Below, one piece after another: positions 23,867-32,960 of a stretch of 64,000 nucleotides of DNA. Below the pieces are notes generated by a model. That model saw only the letters and a list, made by a program, of their open reading frames with translations. It was not told where the DNA came from and did no database searches. A program made the position numbers and the translations under genes. Source of the stretch: Dechloromonas sp. TW-R-39-2 (GTDB lineage Bacteria; Pseudomonadota; Gammaproteobacteria; Burkholderiales; Rhodocyclaceae); contig NZ_CP045202.1 of the NCBI RefSeq assembly GCF_016864195.1, forward strand, positions 2,573,001-2,637,000. The letters are read 5' to 3'. Each line of letters starts with the position of its first letter. Position 1 is the first letter of the stretch.

Positions 23867-24882
23867 TGCTCACCCGAATTAATCAACTCAAGGCCACATG
23901 AATCTGCTGCTCTGCGAGCCGCGTCTATGACTTCCATCACCATCAACCCATCCTCCCCGCTGACCAGAGGTGACTCTCGATCCTCAATAAGCCTTAAAAA
24001 GTGTTGCCACTCTGCGAGATAGCTTTCGTCACGCTGCTGAGTATACGAATAAATCGTTTCCCAATTGGCCGCACCCCTAGCAAAAAAATCCACGCAGCCG
24101 GTCAGCGCATTCCAGCGAAGACTCCCTTCAGAACCGATGGCAACACAGATGCGGGTAGTGTCGTGTCGAATGAAGTCCATGTTCAGCGTGGCAACCAGTT
24201 GATGTCCGTCGTTGATTGGCTCAAAACCAATAAGGAGATGTGCGGAATCTTCGACGTCGATTTCCAAGCCACTCTGGTGTAATAGAGCAGCCCTCACCCA
24301 GTCAACCCGTCCAAAGATCCAGCACAGGTAATCGATCTCATGGCTTAATTCGAGCAGCGCCCCACCACCCAAAGCCTTGCGTGCCGAAACACCGCTCCTG
24401 TAATCCCCCCCCTGTCGCCAGGTTGGCAGATACTGGCCGATCTCGCAACGAACGGAAGCTATCTTCCCTGCCAGCTCGCCACTACGAACGAGATCGCGAA
24501 AACGTACCAGTGAAGGGAGAAAACGCAGGTTGTATCCGACCATCAGAACACACTGCCTCCTTTGGCACAGTTCAATCAGCAGAGAAATATCGGCGGCAGA
24601 ATCAGACAGCGGTTTCTCTATCAGCAGATGCACCCCCTGCTCCGCCAAAGGCAATGCTACGTTCAGGTGAAATGGTGCCGGATTGGCTACCACGGCAAGC
24701 TGAGGAGCAAAACATAGAGCGCTCTCCAGAGAGTAGAAACAGCCGTTTGAAAATTCGGGCACGAAGTGATCGACTTGATGCCGCAATACCCGAATATCGG
24801 CCTCGGGGAGCAATTGCCTTGCCAATCTGAGATGCCTGCTACCAATACTCCCGTAACCGACAATGAGGACCCGCGCGATCAC
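23863..24882 (-). CDS. Gfo/Idh/MocA-family oxidoreductase
   Basis: 339 aa from a GTG that overlaps the HisF-like stop as GTGA; the upstream extension of the frame lies within hisF-like coding sequence and is not needed. VLIVGYGSIGSRHLRLA binds NAD(P); EKPLSDSAADISLL carries the EKP motif with its catalytic Lys near residue 95; GGALLELSHEIDYLCWIFG follows. It also contains an 8-base G run. Members act on sugars or nucleotide sugars. With the SDR gene it could be a local counterpart of the PtmA/PtmF pair, but that is an inference from context. Confidence 0.82.
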   Translation of the reverse strand: MIARVLIVGYGSIGSRHLRLARQLLPEADIRVLRHQVDHFVPEFSNGCFYSLESALCFAPQLAVVANPAPFHLNVALPLAEQGVHLLIEKPLSDSAADISLLIELCQRRQCVLMVGYNLRFLPSLVRFRDLVRSGELAGKIASVRCEIGQYLPTWRQGGDYRSGVSARKALGGGALLELSHEIDYLCWIFGRVDWVRAALLHQSGLEIDVEDSAHLLIGFEPINDGHQLVATLNMDFIRHDTTRICVAIGSEGSLRWNALTGCVDFFARGAANWETIYSYTQQRDESYLAEWQHFLRLIEDRESPLVSGEDGLMVMEVIDAARRAADSCGLELINSGEQ

Positions 24883-25701: not shown

Positions 25702-26334
25702 TCAGGCACACTCAATAAAGTTTTTCAGCAACAACAACCCGTTTGACTGACTCTTTTCGGGATGAAACTGAGTCGCGAAGATATTCGCGTGCTCGTACGC
25801 TGCCAAAAACTCAACTCCGTAGACACAATTAGCGGCCAAGCCCGGCACACCGTCCGGCAACATTCGATATGAGTGCACGAAATAAAAATCAGCCTCCGCA
25901 GGCAGTCCTGCCATCAAGCGACTTCCGGGAGGCACATTGACACTGTTGAAACCAACATGGGGAATCTTCGAACCACGGACCTCATCGATAGAAAAACGTT
26001 CGACAACGGCAGGAATCAAACCTAAACCATGCGTTTCACCATCCTCTAAACCTCTCTCTCCCAACAATTGCATGCCCAAGCAAATGCCAAGAATTTTCCG
26101 ACCACGATTCAGGATCGCATGCTCGAGTGCGAGGTCCAACTCTTGCTCGCGCAAAGATGTCATAGCTTTTCTGAACGAGCCGACACCAGGCAGGACAAGG
26201 GTATCCGCACTGGCAACAAGGTCTGGATCGCTCACAACTAGCGCATCGCACCCCAGATAATTGAATGCGCTAACCACTGAGCAAATGTTGCCCATGCCGT
26301 AGTCGACAATCGTGACGGAATTGTTTGTCATCAA
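25702..26334 (-). CDS. HisH-like glutamine amidotransferase
   Basis: 210 aa class I glutaminase: VDYGMGNICSV at the N-terminus, nucleophile Cys in ILGICLGMQLLGE near residue 88, and the His-Glu pair in FATQFHPEKSQ near 190. It would release ammonia from glutamine and pass it through the HisF-like barrel to the WbpG-like amidotransferase. It overlaps the WbpG-like gene by 4 bases. This copy is embedded in a glycan locus with no other histidine genes, so a role in histidine synthesis is unlikely. Confidence 0.9.
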   Translation of the reverse strand: MMTNNSVTIVDYGMGNICSVVSAFNYLGCDALVVSDPDLVASADTLVLPGVGSFRKAMTSLREQELDLALEHAILNRGRKILGICLGMQLLGERGLEDGETHGLGLIPAVVERFSIDEVRGSKIPHVGFNSVNVPPGSRLMAGLPAEADFYFVHSYRMLPDGVPGLAANCVYGVEFLAAYEHANIFATQFHPEKSQSNGLLLLKNFIECA

Positions 26335-27455
26335 ACGACCTGAAATTTTGGCATCCAGCGACCATCTATTTTTTCAAAGAGAGCGCGATTCGCGTAGCGA
26401 TCAAGTACGGCATCAAACTCTGCCTTGCTCATCTGGTAATAGTCCAGATATAGATCAATAAATTCCTCGGGATAATAGCCATCGTAGAGACGAACCAAGT
26501 TGAGAGCCTGCTGCCTGTCCATTGCCCCACGGCGAATTTCGATACTTGCATCCTGGTTGGCTCGACCAAAACCGAATTTCAAATACATTAGATAAGCATG
26601 CAAAGCGTAAAGTGCTTGGTCGTTTTGCGCGAAATTGGTGAAGGTTCCTGCATTTGATGAGTCTGCCTCCTGCAAGCCGCAGTGTTCCTTCGCCACCAAA
26701 TAATTCCGGTACGGGTCCCAGTTCTCGTAGTAGGACCAATGGGTCAGGTCAATGGGGTTCCGATCTAGCGCATCGGAAGCGGGAAATCTGAAAAACTGCA
26801 ATTCGCTCTCCGGAAGTCCGCAGCTTTCAAGCACTTTCTCATACCCGCCTTCGAGGTAGATCTTCTTCTGATAATTCACGTCGTAAATCGGATTCTTGGC
26901 TGTTTCAGTCGATCCACCATATTCGACCTCACCATCTTCTCCGTAGAAAACCAGATCAATTCCAAAGCCCATTGCCACATGTATTACCGCTGTATGAATG
27001 GCGATCAGCCATCCATAGTACGGAAAGCCAATATCGACAAATCCAGCCTTATTAAGCCTGCGCATAGCCTCATATGATGGATTGACGGAAATATGGTTAT
27101 ACCCGCTGTTCACAAAAGCACGGAGGTTCTTGTCTCCAAGTTCCAGAGGTAGAGCTGGAGTTACAGTTACAGCGAGAGGGTTCATGCCATATTTGTGCTT
27201 CAGGTTGTAGGCCACATACGAACCATCCTTCCCTCCGCTAACCGGCACCAAGCAGTCGAATCGACCGTTACTCGAGCGATGCCGATTCAAAAGCTGCTGC
27301 AACTCGTTAAGCCGAGCCCCCCAATCTAGATTTGTTTTTGTCTCGGCCCAACGGCATGCATTGCAGTAACCACGCTCATCAAAGGTAATTCTTGGGCGAG
27401 TAGACATTGCGAGACAGTTGGAACACCAACGCAATTCAGGGATAGCTAAGGACAT
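26331..27455 (-). CDS. N-acetyl sugar amidotransferase (WbpG/PseA/LegA-like)
   Basis: 374 aa PP-loop ATP-pyrophosphatase. Two N-terminal CxxC pairs (CSNC and CNAC) suggest a zinc knuckle; PVSGGKDGSYVAYNLK near residue 70 is the ATP-binding loop; FYGEDGEVEYGGS follows near 175. Homologues with HisH/HisF-like partners convert an N-acetyl group to an acetamidino group on nonulosonic or uronic acids. In this neighbourhood the likely target is the C5 N-acetyl of legionaminic acid, as in Legionella LPS and Campylobacter flagellin. A GGAG box precedes the ATG. Confidence 0.88.
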   Translation of the reverse strand: MSLAIPELRWCSNCLAMSTRPRITFDERGYCNACRWAETKTNLDWGARLNELQQLLNRHRSSNGRFDCLVPVSGGKDGSYVAYNLKHKYGMNPLAVTVTPALPLELGDKNLRAFVNSGYNHISVNPSYEAMRRLNKAGFVDIGFPYYGWLIAIHTAVIHVAMGFGIDLVFYGEDGEVEYGGSTETAKNPIYDVNYQKKIYLEGGYEKVLESCGLPESELQFFRFPASDALDRNPIDLTHWSYYENWDPYRNYLVAKEHCGLQEADSSNAGTFTNFAQNDQALYALHAYLMYLKFGFGRANQDASIEIRRGAMDRQQALNLVRLYDGYYPEEFIDLYLDYYQMSKAEFDAVLDRYANRALFEKIDGRWMPKFQVV

Positions 27456-27482: not shown

Positions 27483-28526
27483 CTACGTTTTGTTGGCCAG
27501 AGCTAAATCATCTGGCCGTCCTACATCAAGCCAAGGCTCATGCATAGGAAAGGCAACGGTACGTTTACCCTCGTACTGCAGTTGCTCGAAGAGGCTGGGC
27601 ATATCCAGCAGCATGTTAGGCTTGACGTGAGTCAACGCCTGTGGGCTCAGCGCGTAGATTCCGGCATTGATGTGCGTTCGATTAACCGGTTTTTCCTCAA
27701 AGCCAACGATATCGACTCCATTTGTCTGCACCACGCCAAAGGGATGCTGCCATTCGTAGAGACGTACTGCCATGGTGGCGGCAGCCCCTTGCCGATAATG
27801 GAAATCCAGCACTTCACCATATCGAATGTCGGAGAGGACATCGCCGTTGGTCACAATAAAGGAATCAGAAGGCTGCGGATTGAGCAAGCCAAGAGCCCCG
27901 GCCGTACCCAGTGGGGATATCTCGCGCAGGTAGTCGATGCTTACATCCCAACGCGAACCGTCGCCGAAATAATCTTCGATTACGTGACCGAGATACATAA
28001 TGGCCAGCACGAAGTGGCGAAAACCCTCTCCTCGGGCACGCTCAATGATGTGCTCTAGCATAGGCTTTCCGGCAACAGGTAGCATCGGCTTTGGGCAGGT
28101 TTCGGTGTGGGGGCGCATTCGCTTTCCCAAACCTCCTGCCATGATCACAATAGTATTGGAGCGAACCTCTCCTGCCACGTCGTCATCCCAGAGATGGAGT
28201 CCGACAACCCGATGATCGCCATCGACCACAGGAAGCTGCCGCAATTTGTTGACACGCATCAGATGCGCAACCATCTCCCGCCCCATTTCCGGCGGCACCA
28301 CCAAGGAGTTGCTGCGCATTACAGCAGACAATGGGGAATCAATCTGCCCGCCCCGTAACAAACCGCGGCGAATATCTCCATCAGTAACAGTACCCAATAA
28401 TCTGCCAAAATCATCGACTACGAGCACGATCTGCAGCCCACTCTCGTTCAAATTGGCAATAACGTCTCGGATAAGCTTGTCCGGCGACAGCATAATTTTT
28501 CGCCACAGGTGTTCTGGCAGACTCAT
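27483..28526 (-). CDS. ptmE: Glucosamine-1-phosphate guanylyltransferase-like protein (CBS pair + nucleotidyltransferase)
   Basis: 347 aa. Residues 10-115 are two CBS motifs (VVDDFGRLLGTVTDGDIRRGLL, LPVVDGDHRVVGL). From 125 on there is a nucleotidyltransferase: IVIMAGGLGKRMRPHTETCPKPMLPVAGKPML, FIVTNGDVLSD and GIYALSP. This arrangement is that of PtmE, which makes the GDP-amino sugar used for legionaminic acid. The ATG overlaps the legG stop (ATGA) and sits four bases after an 11-G tract, so tract length can affect initiation. An internal ATG at codon 12 is an alternative start. Confidence 0.88.
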   Translation of the reverse strand: MSLPEHLWRKIMLSPDKLIRDVIANLNESGLQIVLVVDDFGRLLGTVTDGDIRRGLLRGGQIDSPLSAVMRSNSLVVPPEMGREMVAHLMRVNKLRQLPVVDGDHRVVGLHLWDDDVAGEVRSNTIVIMAGGLGKRMRPHTETCPKPMLPVAGKPMLEHIIERARGEGFRHFVLAIMYLGHVIEDYFGDGSRWDVSIDYLREISPLGTAGALGLLNPQPSDSFIVTNGDVLSDIRYGEVLDFHYRQGAAATMAVRLYEWQHPFGVVQTNGVDIVGFEEKPVNRTHINAGIYALSPQALTHVKPNMLLDMPSLFEQLQYEGKRTVAFPMHEPWLDVGRPDDLALANKT

Positions 28527-29701
28527 GTCGCCCCCCCCCCCGAAGCAGCAGGAAGGTCAAAAAACGTCTTTTTCACCAGTTTATCCAGTTCCAGTTGTTT
28601 AATTTCAGCAACGATCCGCGCGCTAGCACCACCATTCCCGTAGGGATTGTGCACATTGTAAAGGCTAGACCGATATTCGGTCGAAAACAGCGTAGCGATG
28701 GCATCAGTGATAGCTCCACGTTCAACCTCGCAATTAATCACGCTGGAAGCCTGCTCTCGCCCGTGCTGACGGCTACCGAGGTTAACCGTACCAACACGAA
28801 ACGATGGAGCCTCCAAAAGACCACTCGAGGAGTTTCCTACAACGCCGTCGACCAAGGCCATGCAGGATAAATAGCGTTGCTGACCCAGTGACACAAATAC
28901 CTTGGCATTGCTGCGGCCATCAACAAACGCATACACTTGACGCATGAGCTCCCGCCCACCAGCATCGGCGTTGGGTAAAGTAAAGATCAAACCAACATTA
29001 TCAAGCGGAGCAAGGGCTGCCAGCAATTCTGCCATTTGCGCTGCTGGCGACGCCGTATCAAGGGTCGCCGGATGAAAGGTTACCAGCAGGTTGCGTTGAC
29101 GAAATTGAAAATCCAGCGATGCTTCCAAGGCTTCGCGAGAAATGAGGGGCTGCCGCATGATTGCATCAACACCCAAGCCACCAACGCAGATCACCCTTTC
29201 TGGACTCTCACCAAGTTGGATAACACGCTGCCGGTAGGCTTCGGTGGCCACAAAATGGACGTGGGACATTTTGGTAACCGCGTGGCGAATTGCGTCGTCA
29301 ACCGCCCCCTCAGTCAGTTCACCACCGTGCAAATGAGCAACCGGGATACGCGCAACCAAAGCAGCACTGACCGCGGCAAGTATCTCAAAACGGTCTCCCA
29401 AGACGATCACCAAGTCTGGAGTAAGGGATTGAAAGGCATCTGCAAATCCAATCACCCCCAAACCGATCGACTTCCCGATAGCCGATGGAGAATCTCCGCT
29501 GAGCAGCATTTCTACCTTGCGGTCGATAATAAATCCATCCAATTCGATTTCGCGGTAGGTATCACCAAATTCCGGAGCCAGATGCATACATGTGGCAATG
29601 ACTTGTAGCGACAAACAAGGGTCGGCCTCGATGTCCTGCATCAACCAACGTAACAAGCCATATTCGGCGCGAGTTCCCGTAACGACGCAAATCCTACGCA
29701 T
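28523..29701 (-). CDS. legG: NeuC/LegG-type hydrolysing sugar 2-epimerase
   Basis: 392 aa GT-B-like epimerase: ICVVTGTRAEYGLL at the N-terminus, LVIVLGDRFEI near residue 92, AHLHGGELTEGAVDDAIRHAV near 122, and VGNSSSGLLEAP near 280. It would release a 6-deoxymannose-type diacetamido sugar from its nucleotide for condensation by LegI. The last codons run through an 11-base G tract (encoding Ser-Gly-Gly-Gly-Ala-Thr-stop), so length changes alter the C-terminus or fuse it to PtmE. The ATG overlaps the legI stop by one base (TAATG). Confidence 0.9.
   Translation of the reverse strand: MRRICVVTGTRAEYGLLRWLMQDIEADPCLSLQVIATCMHLAPEFGDTYREIELDGFIIDRKVEMLLSGDSPSAIGKSIGLGVIGFADAFQSLTPDLVIVLGDRFEILAAVSAALVARIPVAHLHGGELTEGAVDDAIRHAVTKMSHVHFVATEAYRQRVIQLGESPERVICVGGLGVDAIMRQPLISREALEASLDFQFRQRNLLVTFHPATLDTASPAAQMAELLAALAPLDNVGLIFTLPNADAGGRELMRQVYAFVDGRSNAKVFVSLGQQRYLSCMALVDGVVGNSSSGLLEAPSFRVGTVNLGSRQHGREQASSVINCEVERGAITDAIATLFSTEYRSSLYNVHNPYGNGGASARIVAEIKQLELDKLVKKTFFDLPAASGGGAT
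28531..28541 (-). repeat. Poly-G tract (11 bases) at the legG/ptmE junction
   Basis: Eleven consecutive C on the plus strand, i.e. G on the coding strand, lie in the last codons of legG, four bases before the ptmE ATG. No other homopolymer noticed in the window exceeds 8. With 12 or 9 G the legG frame would run straight into ptmE in frame; with 10 G it would extend about 39 codons in another frame. Confidence 0.95.
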
Positions 29702-30702
29702 TACAGTTGTATCGGTTCGTCGGGCGCAAAGTCCCGTGGTGCCGGACGGCCCAGCAACTCATCAAGACACATCGGCGAGATCCCCGTACCAGGACGTTTT
29801 GCCACAAGATTTTGCTCCGAGAACAGCTCACCCTGCGTTATCACCCGGGCAGCGACCAGCGATTTTCGCGCCACCAATCGATTTTTCACCTCGCTGTCCG
29901 AAGGACTCTTAATGCCATCTCCAAGCGCAAGCTCGAGGTTACGGATCGAATAGACCAAGCGTGCTAGTTCATCGGGCTCAATGCTTGCATTGTGATCAGG
30001 GCCAGGCAGTTTACGATCAAGCGTAATGTGTTTTTCGATGATACAGGCCCCAAGCGCGACTGCAGCAATAGCAATCTCGATTCCCTTGGTATGATCTGAA
30101 AATCCGACACTAACGCCAAAAGCCTGACGAATGGATTGCATTGCTCTTAAATTTACTTCGCGCATCGGTACAGGATATTCGGTATTACAGTGAAGCACGA
30201 AAATCCGGTCACGCGTCATTCCAGCCTTCTCAAGCACCATCAAGGCTGCTTCAATCTCGCCAAGATTAGACATGCCCGTCGATAGAATAACCGGCTTACC
30301 AAAACTGCCAACGCGTCGCAGGTAAGTGAGATTTGTAATTTCGCCGGAAGGAATTTTGATTCTTTCCATGCCGAGAGACATTAGATAATCAAGACTTTCT
30401 ATATCGAATGCCGTTGAGAAAAATTCAATCCCTCGTAATTTACAGTGAGCGATAAGTTGCTCATGCATTGCTTCGCTTAGCTCCAGTCGCCGAATCATCT
30501 CGTACTGTGACTCATCGGCTGCCGTGGTGACCATCTGGTATGCGGCTTTCTTGGCTGACGCCGTAACCAACCGGTCAGCCTTAAAGGTTTGAAACTTGAC
30601 GATGTCTGCTCCTGCGTCTGCCGCAGCATCGATCAAGTGCCGTGCCATTGTCAGGTCACCGTTATGATTGACCCCTGCTTCGGCAATAATCAAAGTTCTC
30701 AT
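29701..30702 (-). CDS. legI: NeuB/LegI-type nonulosonate synthase
   Basis: 333 aa. A PEP-condensing TIM barrel opens with IIAEAGVNHNGDLTMAR; KFQTFKADRLV, ILSTGMSNLGEIEAAL, LHCNTEYPVP and GFSDHTKG are NeuB motifs; the C-terminal ~60 residues form an antifreeze-like SAF domain (SLVAARVITQGE..). It condenses the product of LegG with phosphoenolpyruvate to give the nine-carbon acid. NeuNAc synthase is the alternative, but the accompanying genes fit legionaminic acid. The 94-base gap before it is AT-rich, lacks a clear Shine-Dalgarno sequence, and may hold a promoter. Confidence 0.92.
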   Translation of the reverse strand: MRTLIIAEAGVNHNGDLTMARHLIDAAADAGADIVKFQTFKADRLVTASAKKAAYQMVTTAADESQYEMIRRLELSEAMHEQLIAHCKLRGIEFFSTAFDIESLDYLMSLGMERIKIPSGEITNLTYLRRVGSFGKPVILSTGMSNLGEIEAALMVLEKAGMTRDRIFVLHCNTEYPVPMREVNLRAMQSIRQAFGVSVGFSDHTKGIEIAIAAVALGACIIEKHITLDRKLPGPDHNASIEPDELARLVYSIRNLELALGDGIKSPSDSEVKNRLVARKSLVAARVITQGELFSEQNLVAKRPGTGISPMCLDELLGRPAPRDFAPDEPIQL

Positions 30703-30796: not shown

Positions 30797-31972
30797 TCAT
30801 CGGGATATGGCTACTAACTGAGGACTACTTGGAATGTTAATAATGCGCTTTTCTAGGGAACTCGTCACCGGCAGTTCCATACGTGGGCATTCTGCGTATG
30901 GACGAAGTCGGTGCAAAGGTGTCCAAGCTGGCCGCGTCATTAATCCATTGTTATTACTCGCCTCAAGTAGACTGCTGTGCATGCTAGCGTGCTCGTTGTC
31001 GAGTAGCAGAGTCTGCAACCAGTAGTTGCTCCTGCAATCTTCTTGCTCACCAAATACGCGAATGCCTTCAATTCCCGAGAATGCCTCGCGATAATGCGCA
31101 AATAACTGTCGCTTGGCAGCAAGAAACTCGGGGAGTTGCTCAATTTGGGCACACCCCAGCGCTGCATTTATATTCGGCATCCGATAGTTAAAACCGACCA
31201 TATCGTGATCGAAACGCCAGCGATGTGGCAATTTGGCGGTAGTTGTGATGTGTTTTGCTAACTTAGCTAGCACTTCGTCGTTAGTGACAATTGCGCCACC
31301 ACCGCCAGTAGTAATAATTTTGTTGCCATTAAAGCTGAAGGCAGCGAGGCGACCAAAATTGCCGGTATGACGGTCGCGATAATACGATCCAAGGGACTCA
31401 GCAGCATCTTCGATAAATTCTAGGTGAAATCGCTTTGCGACCTCCAGAAGTGCGTCCAAGTTGGAAGGGTGCCCAAAGGTATGCATTGGTAACAAGGCGC
31501 GAATACGGCGTCCAGTTAGGCGGTTGTAACACGCATCGCCCCGAAATTCACTGATATTGCCGAGATGTTCAGACAAAGCCTCAGGATCAATTCCAAGTGA
31601 GTTCTCTTCGACATCAACAAAATGCGGGACGGCATCGCAGTAGCTAACGGCATTGGCTGTAGCCACAAAGGTCAGGGACTGCATCACTACTTCATCACCT
31701 GATTCAACGCCAGCGAGTTTAAGGCAGATATGGAGGGCTGCTGTGCCATTTACTACAGCTATAGCGTACCGGGCGCCGGTAAACTCGGCGATATCGTGCT
31801 CGAAGCGATCAACAAATTTGCCGACAGACGAAACCCAGCCGGTGTCCAGGCACTCCTTGACGTACGCCCACTCGTTCCCTTGGAAATGCGGTTCGTGCAG
31901 CGGCGCCGAGCCTGTGGGAACAACCGAGCGCAACGCATCGAGAACAGAAGCAGGTGTGAAATTAGATGACAT
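30797..31972 (-). CDS. legC: LegC-type aminotransferase (DegT/DnrJ/EryC1/StrS)
   Basis: 391 aa from the ATG that overlaps the legB stop by 11 bases; a longer frame exists but runs deep into legB. PLP enzyme with VNGTAALHICLKLAGV, EFIEDAAESLGSYY and FSFNGNKIITTGGGGAIV, the Lys being the Schiff-base residue. It would aminate C4 of the 4-keto-6-deoxy sugar made by LegB. It resembles the other aminotransferase at 5815-7020 only in family motifs. Confidence 0.9.
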   Translation of the reverse strand: MSSNFTPASVLDALRSVVPTGSAPLHEPHFQGNEWAYVKECLDTGWVSSVGKFVDRFEHDIAEFTGARYAIAVVNGTAALHICLKLAGVESGDEVVMQSLTFVATANAVSYCDAVPHFVDVEENSLGIDPEALSEHLGNISEFRGDACYNRLTGRRIRALLPMHTFGHPSNLDALLEVAKRFHLEFIEDAAESLGSYYRDRHTGNFGRLAAFSFNGNKIITTGGGGAIVTNDEVLAKLAKHITTTAKLPHRWRFDHDMVGFNYRMPNINAALGCAQIEQLPEFLAAKRQLFAHYREAFSGIEGIRVFGEQEDCRSNYWLQTLLLDNEHASMHSSLLEASNNNGLMTRPAWTPLHRLRPYAECPRMELPVTSSLEKRIINIPSSPQLVAISR

Positions 31973-32960
31973 AGCTGTCAGACCTGTACCGTCTGAGGTT
32001 GTCTGGATTGCTAAACCATGCGACTGTCTCAGCCATGCCACGCTTCATGCCTTCGCGGCCTGCGTATTCAGGCTTCCACCCAGCGATTTCCCATGCCTTT
32101 GTGTTATCCGCCCACAAACGATCCACTTCACTTTTCTCCGGACGCAAGCGGACTGCATCGGTCTCTATCTCAACGTCCACTCCCATGGTCTCGGCAATCA
32201 AGCGAACTGTGTCAATAATCGATATCTCAAAATTGCTGCCGATATTGATGACTTCACCAATCGAGCCCTCGGATTCTGCGATGGCATGGAAACCACGCAC
32301 CGTGTCCTGAACGTAGTTGAAGTCCCTTGTTGGATGTAGCGCCCCCAGTTTCAGTTTTCGCTTGCCACTTGCGATCTGGGTAATAACCGTCGGAATGATG
32401 GCTCGTGCCGACTGACGCGGCCCATAGGTATTAAATGGACGGATGATACTGACGGGGGTATTGAATGCGTTGTAGAAAGAAAGCGCAATTTGGTCACTTC
32501 CTATTTTGGTCGCGGAATAGGGAGACTGACCTTGCAGCGGATGCTTTTCATCAATCGGGACGTATCGAGCAGTACCATACACTTCGCTGGTTGACGTTTG
32601 AATCACACGCTCCACCCCGAGGTCTCGTGCTGCCTGAACGACGTTCAGCGTTCCCTTAATATTCGTATCAACATAGGTGTCTGGTGAGTGATACGAATAG
32701 GGAATAGCGATCAAAGCAGCCAAATTCAAAACGATATCACAGCCTTCCATCGCCTTGCGCACCCCGTTCGGATCACGCACGTCGCCGGCGAACACATCAA
32801 ATTTTCCACGCACGTCCGGTGCGCACTGATCAAGCCAACCCCAACTATCAAATGAGTTGTAAAGCACAAAAGCACGGACGTCATACCCCTGTCGCACCAT
32901 ATGTTCAGTAAGGTGCGAACCTATGAATCCATCGGCACCGGTAATAAGAACTTTTTTCAT
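31962..32960 (-). CDS. legB: LegB-type NAD-dependent 4,6-dehydratase
   Basis: 332 aa extended SDR: LITGADGFIGSHLTEHMV near residue 5, AALIAIPYSYHSPDTYVDTN near 85, catalytic Tyr-Lys in QSPYSATKIGSDQ near 150, and RPFNTYGPRQSARAIIPTVI. Sequence style matches the dehydratases that open the legionaminic acid pathway on a nucleotide-linked GlcNAc. It is first of the leg series after a 76-base AT-rich gap that could hold an internal promoter; no strong Shine-Dalgarno sequence is visible. Confidence 0.9.
   Translation of the reverse strand: MKKVLITGADGFIGSHLTEHMVRQGYDVRAFVLYNSFDSWGWLDQCAPDVRGKFDVFAGDVRDPNGVRKAMEGCDIVLNLAALIAIPYSYHSPDTYVDTNIKGTLNVVQAARDLGVERVIQTSTSEVYGTARYVPIDEKHPLQGQSPYSATKIGSDQIALSFYNAFNTPVSIIRPFNTYGPRQSARAIIPTVITQIASGKRKLKLGALHPTRDFNYVQDTVRGFHAIAESEGSIGEVINIGSNFEISIIDTVRLIAETMGVDVEIETDAVRLRPEKSEVDRLWADNTKAWEIAGWKPEYAGREGMKRGMAETVAWFSNPDNLRRYRSDSYVI

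Follow-up and report, generated by a model that had tools for sequence, protein, structure and literature searches.

An 11-base G tract over the legG/ptmE stop/start overlap of a Dechloromonas genome: a candidate coupling element and candidate site of C-terminal or fusion phase variation

An 11-base run of G at the end of legG in Dechloromonas sp. TW-R-39-2 raises the question of whether its length switches LegG and the neighboring PtmE between separate and fused proteins, or whether the run mainly serves the expression of the two genes as they stand. In the window (the whole stretch of 64,000 nucleotides analyzed), the minus strand at the junction reads ...GCTTCGGGGGGGGGGGCGACATGAGT, and the coding-strand order is G11, CGAC, ATGAGT (28523-28545). 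The initial annotation had described 11 G in the last codons of legG, four bases ahead of a ptmE ATG that overlaps the legG stop, and the sequence confirms each part of this description: the legG stop TGA lies inside ATGA, the 3' end of the tract stands four bases from the ptmE ATG, and LegG ends S-G-G-G-A-T-stop with its glycines coded by the tract. Lying five bases ahead of the legG TGA, G11 is a run of at least 10 G near the 3' end of a coding sequence.

The legG/ptmE junction and its reading frames

28531-28541, minus strand: the G11 tract (C11 on the plus strand), exactly 11 bases
28523-28526, minus strand: ATGA, four bases shared by the ptmE start and the legG stop, with the same overlap in the nearest relative (genome G016)
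28526-28552, minus strand: codons for the extra LegG tail PAASGGGAT (residues 384-392), outside the alignment with solved relatives
28523-29701, minus strand: legG, hydrolysing 2-epimerase of NeuC/LegG type, 392 aa (TIGR03568, NeuC/NnaA, 468.7 bits against a cut-off of 235.9; PF02350; solved relatives 5zlr and 5xvs)
27483-28526, minus strand: ptmE, two CBS stretches and a nucleotidyltransferase, 347 aa (PF00571 in two stretches; PF00483)
29701-30702, minus strand: legI, NeuB-family synthase, with a one-base TAATG overlap with legG
30797-31972, minus strand: legC aminotransferase (TIGR04181), its start placed by hand at an ATG, the ORF being open from a GTG at 32041
31962-32960, minus strand: legB 4,6-dehydratase (TIGR04180)
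26331-27455, minus strand: WbuX-type N-acetyl sugar amidotransferase, downstream of ptmE (TIGR03573; no Pfam match)

The name ptmE is our assumption, following the initial annotation and general usage; the gene has the PtmE-type layout of paired CBS domains followed by a nucleotidyltransferase domain, within a leg operon, and none of the 25 NCBIfam matches shown for it lay above its own cut-off. Domain scans further along the same strand find an oxidoreductase, a cytidylyltransferase, a hexapeptide acetyltransferase, an SDR protein and a family-2 glycosyltransferase, and the translations of other ORFs read as HisH-, HisF-, flippase- and asparagine-synthase-like proteins and as rml genes, the flippase-like ORF having no NCBIfam match. 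Taken together, partly from domain scans and partly from ORF reading, the cluster reads as O-antigen-type rather than flagellar, and looks like a locus for legionaminic acid synthesis, the sugar perhaps bearing an acetamidino group. With ORF starts placed mechanically, short stop/start overlaps recur along the operon: one base at legI/legG, and four bases at legG/ptmE, oxidoreductase/cytidylyltransferase, cytidylyltransferase/acetyltransferase and SDR/flippase-like. Calls from an ad hoc gene finder based on codon usage were discarded, since it put the legG and ptmE starts in the wrong places.

Reading through the tract in each frame shows what a change of length would do. The frame offset by two bases from legG is that of ptmE, which it enters at the gene's own ATG, and this frame is brought into register by one G more (12) or two fewer (9), giving a LegG-PtmE fusion. 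The frame offset by one base, as with 10 G, continues for 39 codons beyond the glycines and then stops. Both alternative frames lengthen LegG, so that other tract lengths either change its C-terminus or merge it with PtmE. The frame arithmetic first proposed for this site, an in-frame fusion at 9 or 12 G and 39 foreign codons at 10, is correct. The same annotation had placed the tract on the ptmE ribosome site and suggested that its length could tune PtmE; the position stands, but tuning through ribosome-site spacing we reject on reasoning. Because the 3' end of the tract is always four bases from the ATG, that spacing should hardly vary with tract length. A change of length should make itself felt more by way of the legG frame than by spacing, and any effect on PtmE would come through the place where legG ribosomes stop or through RNA folding.

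The LegG sequence itself suggests that such changes would be tolerated. Its closest solved proteins, 5zlr and 5xvs (named GDP/UDP-N,N'-diacetylbacillosamine 2-epimerase), align to residues 1-383, and the 5zlr chain runs two residues past the aligned part; LegG relatives have short tails that differ in length and sequence. Since the tail is extra to the solved relatives and variable among relatives, the tract probably sits where length and frame can change at little cost to LegG. The Campylobacter type of on/off switch, in which a slip truncates a protein from a tract within its coding frame, is not the arrangement found here, as the tract lies beyond the part of LegG common to the solved relatives.

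The junction among relatives

With the host's own genome included, LegG matches occur in 9 of 76 genomes of the genus (E <= 1e-30), in 26 of 395 genomes of the family (E <= 1e-80), in 20 of 369 of the class (E <= 1e-100), and at 35 loci in named genomes. We inspected 85 distinct legG loci (L003-L009, L040-L074, L154-L196), some of which end soon after legG, and sought ptmE up to 600 and then 900 bases downstream; it is the next gene downstream in 17. None of these 17 adjacent pairs is a natural LegG-PtmE fusion. Three long open frames, L169 (792 aa), L172 (599 aa) and L176 (1151 aa), were considered as fusions and rejected for want of an adjacent ptmE. Three pairs show a possible four-base overlap of stop and start, a further ten have a possible start within 20 bases, and four are separated by at least 59 bases.

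Within -30 to +25 of the legG stop, the longest G run is at most 3 in 16 of the 17 pairs and 6 in G016, although in the four pairs with a distant ptmE start this stretch stops short of the ptmE ribosome site. A tract shared among relatives as a switch is thereby rejected, only G016 exceeding G3; among the relatives examined, the long tract is specific to this lineage. G016 is the nearest species, its LegG being 87% identical, and has its G6 at the tract position together with the same overlap. A MAFFT alignment of the two (431 identities in 574 columns, end gaps included) places several clustered substitutions over the tract and no gap, while an alternative path has about five Gs gained and five bases lost; G016 and the window both keep the overlap and the legG/ptmE frame relation.

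This comparison bears on two further explanations. In the first, the gene does not vary, and RNA polymerase slippage or -1 ribosomal frameshifting yields a fixed minor share of LegG-PtmE fusion. The geometry allows it, since ptmE occupies the -1 frame relative to legG, whose own frame divides the tract as G-GGG-GGG. Programmed frameshifts are, in the available part of PMC3711429, marked by a conserved site, and no conserved slippery site is found here: 16 of the 17 relatives have no comparable run, none reaching above 3. We consider this explanation very improbable. In the second, the true length is not 11, through an error of sequencing or assembly. Homopolymers are the usual weak point of assemblies, and some genomes of the genus contain implausible runs, such as those of 39 and 35 G near a contig end (L100, in G009), by appearance an assembly artefact. 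Against this, a length of 11 is one that keeps the legG/ptmE frame relation found in G016, and an error of this kind seems to us extremely improbable. A 27-G run also lies inside a single-contig genome (L111, in G015).

Long G runs in the genome and the genus

The tract is the longest homopolymer of the window; the second longest has 8 bases, in agreement with the initial annotation, which had seen no other above 8. In the genome (3,462,267 bases, a single contig) there are four G runs of at least 9 (9, 9, 9 and 11), and G11 alone reaches 10. Under a first-order model, runs of at least 11 G or C are expected about 0.026 times in the window and 1.4 times genome-wide, and extrapolating the decay observed from G7 to G9 gives about 0.06 such runs per genome. 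G11 is thus unusual within the window, yet one such run per genome is not extraordinary. Across the genus, runs of G10 or longer occur in 67 of 76 genomes. Starting from 61 tracts with a long ORF nearby on one strand or the other, we chose and scanned 20 sense ORFs on or beside G10+ tracts. The matches included NuoG-like, H+-pyrophosphatase, phosphomannomutase and chemotaxis-receptor proteins, and also a PilY1 domain, a glycosyltransferase, a DegT aminotransferase, a sugar dehydratase and an asparagine synthase. Because tracts also occur in housekeeping genes, a long G run in this genus is by itself no marker of a surface-gene switch.

Side observations on G runs include G10 tracts within the H+-pyrophosphatase and NuoG-like genes (L031 and L106), and a G8 at 24405-24412 on the coding strand of the same operon, inside the Gfo/Idh/MocA oxidoreductase ORF, where the frame is open. 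Long runs in G000 and G002 seem to favor one strand by region, as if tracking replication strand or gene orientation; in G002, for example, G10 has 9 forward matches and 0 reverse.

These figures make it conceivable that G11 is a chance homopolymer that the non-essential tail tolerates, doing no more than ordinary ribosome-site purines would. Between 0.06 and 1.4 such runs are expected per genome, and among the genus tracts examined, many fall outside coding sequence, antisense to a gene or in housekeeping genes. Yet the tract lies precisely at an overlapping start, the one whose predicted 16S pairing is the strongest of the 15 starts tested (see below), and G016 likewise has a G run there. 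We hold chance alone to be quite unlikely.

Long G runs occur at other junctions as well. In G010 (L018:1501-1510), G10 occupies the last codons of a DegT aminotransferase ending IGGGA, whose TGA overlaps the GTG (GTGA) of an Epimerase_2 gene, the same architecture as at legG/ptmE. In G072 (L222:1499-1509), G11 lies in the last codons of a glycosyltransferase-like gene, whose protein ends TGGGASI, and over the start of the next gene, which is hexapeptide acetyltransferase-like; the NCBIfam matches shown for both assignments are all below cut-offs, and the site fails a strict start test, the frame being open 55 codons upstream. An ORF of at least 150 codons lies ahead of the tract and ends within 12 codons at 5 of 67 tracts (the window, G010, G072, L027 and L031). 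The sample is not unbiased: L222 had entered it through its RTGA pattern, while legG had led to L112 and to the window. The qualifying ORF at L031 is an off-frame ORF in the pyrophosphatase gene. At L027:1501-1510 (G020), a G10 tract begins five codons before the end of a vipB-like (type VI sheath) frame that matches its family profile only in part, which points to a broken frame or an assembly error. A G9 in mid-locus at L197 (G001) sits at a stop/start overlap of genes that read like lactate utilisation, and the layout is therefore not confined to surface genes.

A loose start test was passed by 7 of 65 G10-15 tracts and none of three longer ones, against 2154 of 115248 random positions (1.87%). 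Two of the seven, the window and L112, came through legG, and we judged L012, L016 (its ORF without a Pfam match) and L035 to be chance ORFs, which leaves L018 and L020 among 63 tracts. L020:1501-1511 (G012) is a G11 that runs right up to the ATG of a prepilin-like gene (N_methyl motif), and L112:6387-6396 (G028) a G10 three bases ahead of the ATG of a NeuB-type (legI-like) gene, beside another legG. G9 followed by RTGA was found 44 times, in 26 of 76 genomes, and its reversed control 30 times, in 17 genomes; in the family, G10 gave 63 of 395 genomes against 41 for a control counted by hand. Among 30 family loci fetched as a subset of the matches, 8 have a plausible start at the site, the window included, and the window alone satisfies the start test as well as the upstream-gene test. 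The enrichment of long G runs at gene starts and junctions is weak. A broader reading would make poly-G ribosome sites in stop/start overlaps a class of contingency sites in the genus, with legG/ptmE, the aminotransferase/2-epimerase pair of G010 and the glycosyltransferase/acetyltransferase pair of G072 as members, switching sugar and polysaccharide enzyme pairs between coupled, fused and uncoupled states. We regard this class as a long shot; if it were real, it would amount to a three-way switch on enzyme partnership rather than an on/off switch.

The host genome carries mutS (1073.9 bits) and mutL (561.4 bits). The MutS/MutL repair pair is missing from Campylobacter and H. pylori but present in Neisseria, which phase-varies all the same. 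As the host, like Neisseria, has both proteins, the analogy with Campylobacter drawn in the initial annotation is weakened, though the poly-G precedent itself holds and there is still room for a switch.

G11 is a candidate for C-terminal or fusion phase variation. In its full form, this explanation holds that slippage under selection toggles LegG-PtmE between separate, fused and frame-shifted states, and so varies surface legionaminic acid. All three states are allowed by the frames, the ribosome-site position fits, domain scans and ORF reading give a surface-polysaccharide context, and the sugar and polysaccharide pairs of G010 and G072 carry G10-11 in the upstream gene's last codons over the next start. 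There is also published precedent, in the available portions of the texts, for repeat tracts at gene 3' ends that merge genes (PMC2823697, PMC5320596). Weighing on the other side are the absence of fusions among the 17 pairs, of which G016 alone, with G6, has a run above G3; the occurrence of G10 in 67 of 76 genomes of the genus, including in nuoG-like and H+-pyrophosphatase genes; the G9 junction of the same kind in lactate-utilisation-like genes; and the presence of MutS and MutL. Furthermore, neither altered state is an obvious off switch, since a fusion retains both domains. Length switching under selection is therefore a candidate reading that the evidence partly supports, and in the full form given here we judge it unlikely, though not negligible.

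A coupling proposal and its parallels in known systems

The region upstream of ptmE has a predicted pairing with the 16S tail of -10.9 kcal/mol, the strongest of 15 hand-picked starts tested against an E. coli-type tail, with the oxidoreductase gene left out because its start is unclear; the other 14 window starts range from +1.7 to -7.1 kcal/mol, and the prediction for ptmE of G016 is -9.4. The G tract is also predicted to fold with upstream legG pyrimidines:

28528-28560, minus strand: predicted RNA hairpin in which the G tract pairs with legG pyrimidines lying upstream (-14.7 kcal/mol when 39 nt are folded)

In 39 nt this hairpin has a z-score of -2.04, with 8 of 200 shuffles as good, and in longer stretches it hardly beats shuffles (z -0.67 in 63 nt, -0.34 in 80 nt). 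The ptmE site is predicted to be the least accessible of 9 starts (0.19 unpaired), which fits translational coupling because translation of legG would have to open the site. The overlapping stop and start expected of coupled genes is present as ATGA.

We propose, with slightly better than even confidence, that G11 is a ribosome-loading and coupling element in a dispensable LegG tail that has grown into a slippage-prone tract. Ribosomes ending legG would open the local RNA and stop at the TGA atop the ptmE ATG, where pairing between the G tract and the 16S tail would hold them until they restart on ptmE. After the split from the nearest relative, replication slippage would have lengthened the tract, which was presumably free to grow because it lies in a tail unneeded for the enzyme fold. 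The tract is probably unstable in length, and its variants would give separate proteins, a LegG-PtmE fusion, or a LegG extended by 39 foreign codons together with a reduced amount of PtmE. The proposal draws on the ATGA overlap common to G016, the other short overlaps in the operon, and the G6 of G016 at the same place with the frame relation kept. Several observations count against parts of it: the hairpin is not clearly better than shuffles in the longer stretches; the gapless alignment with G016 means that substitutions could account for the tract in place of slippage; MutS and MutL should repress slippage; and the share of shorter G runs found at starts follows no clear trend with run length (G5 3/387, G6 5/74, G7 1/43, G8 0/27, G9 0/4), the rate for random positions being 1.87%.

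The closest parallel is Helicobacter canadensis, for which the accessible part of PMC2823697 describes C-terminal phase variation with tracts of at least 10 G near gene 3' ends, including a G11 five bases before the stop of flaG and the possible merging of HCAN_0660 with HCAN_0661. The legG/ptmE site shares with these the long tract near a 3' end, the alternative C-termini and the merging with the next gene, and its spacing is identical to that of flaG. It differs in that the tract doubles as the ribosome site of the next gene and that both genes are assigned enzymes; moreover, a range of lengths per tract was seen in reads of H. canadensis, according to the same excerpt, whereas the legG/ptmE tract is known here from one assembled sequence.

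Among genes fused by repeats, pglB2 is a glycan gene. In the parts of PMC5320596 available, a repeat fuses N. gonorrhoeae NGK_1211 with NGK_1212, strain variation being reported for NGK_1211, and the N. meningitidis fusion of pglB2 with its downstream gene is cited. The legG/ptmE tract is likewise a repeat close to a gene's 3' end that could join that gene to the following one, though the pglB2 repeat is poly-A and that of legG/ptmE poly-G. Campylobacter has poly-G tracts of similar length in flagellar glycan genes and in Cj0031, some in nonulosonic-acid glycan loci; in the sections of PMC7099621 and PMC4294202 at hand these lie inside the coding frame and act on/off, unlike the legG/ptmE tract, and the term ptmE occurs nowhere in PMC7099621. 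An effect of G-tract length on translation is reported for the Mycobacterium tuberculosis espR leader (PMC11898584, in part), where the tract is 144 bp upstream and thought to work by leader folding, whereas the legG/ptmE tract lies over the ribosome site of a putatively coupled gene. A limited literature search, with partial texts, found no description of the legG/ptmE tract and no paper joining betaproteobacteria, homopolymeric tracts, phase variation and O-antigen.

If the tract does not vary in length, the locus would be a caution that G11 alone is poor evidence of phase variation in a genus rich in long G runs. If length variation is real, legG/ptmE would place a C-terminal or fusion contingency site in a betaproteobacterium that is not among the usual host-associated pathogens, judging its habitat by its nearest named relative, Betaproteobacteria bacterium UBA5582, a metagenome-derived genome. 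The same bases would then serve as a slippery repeat and as the ribosome site of the next gene, and two assigned enzymes from a single pathway would allow a direct test of how translational coupling and phase variation are linked.
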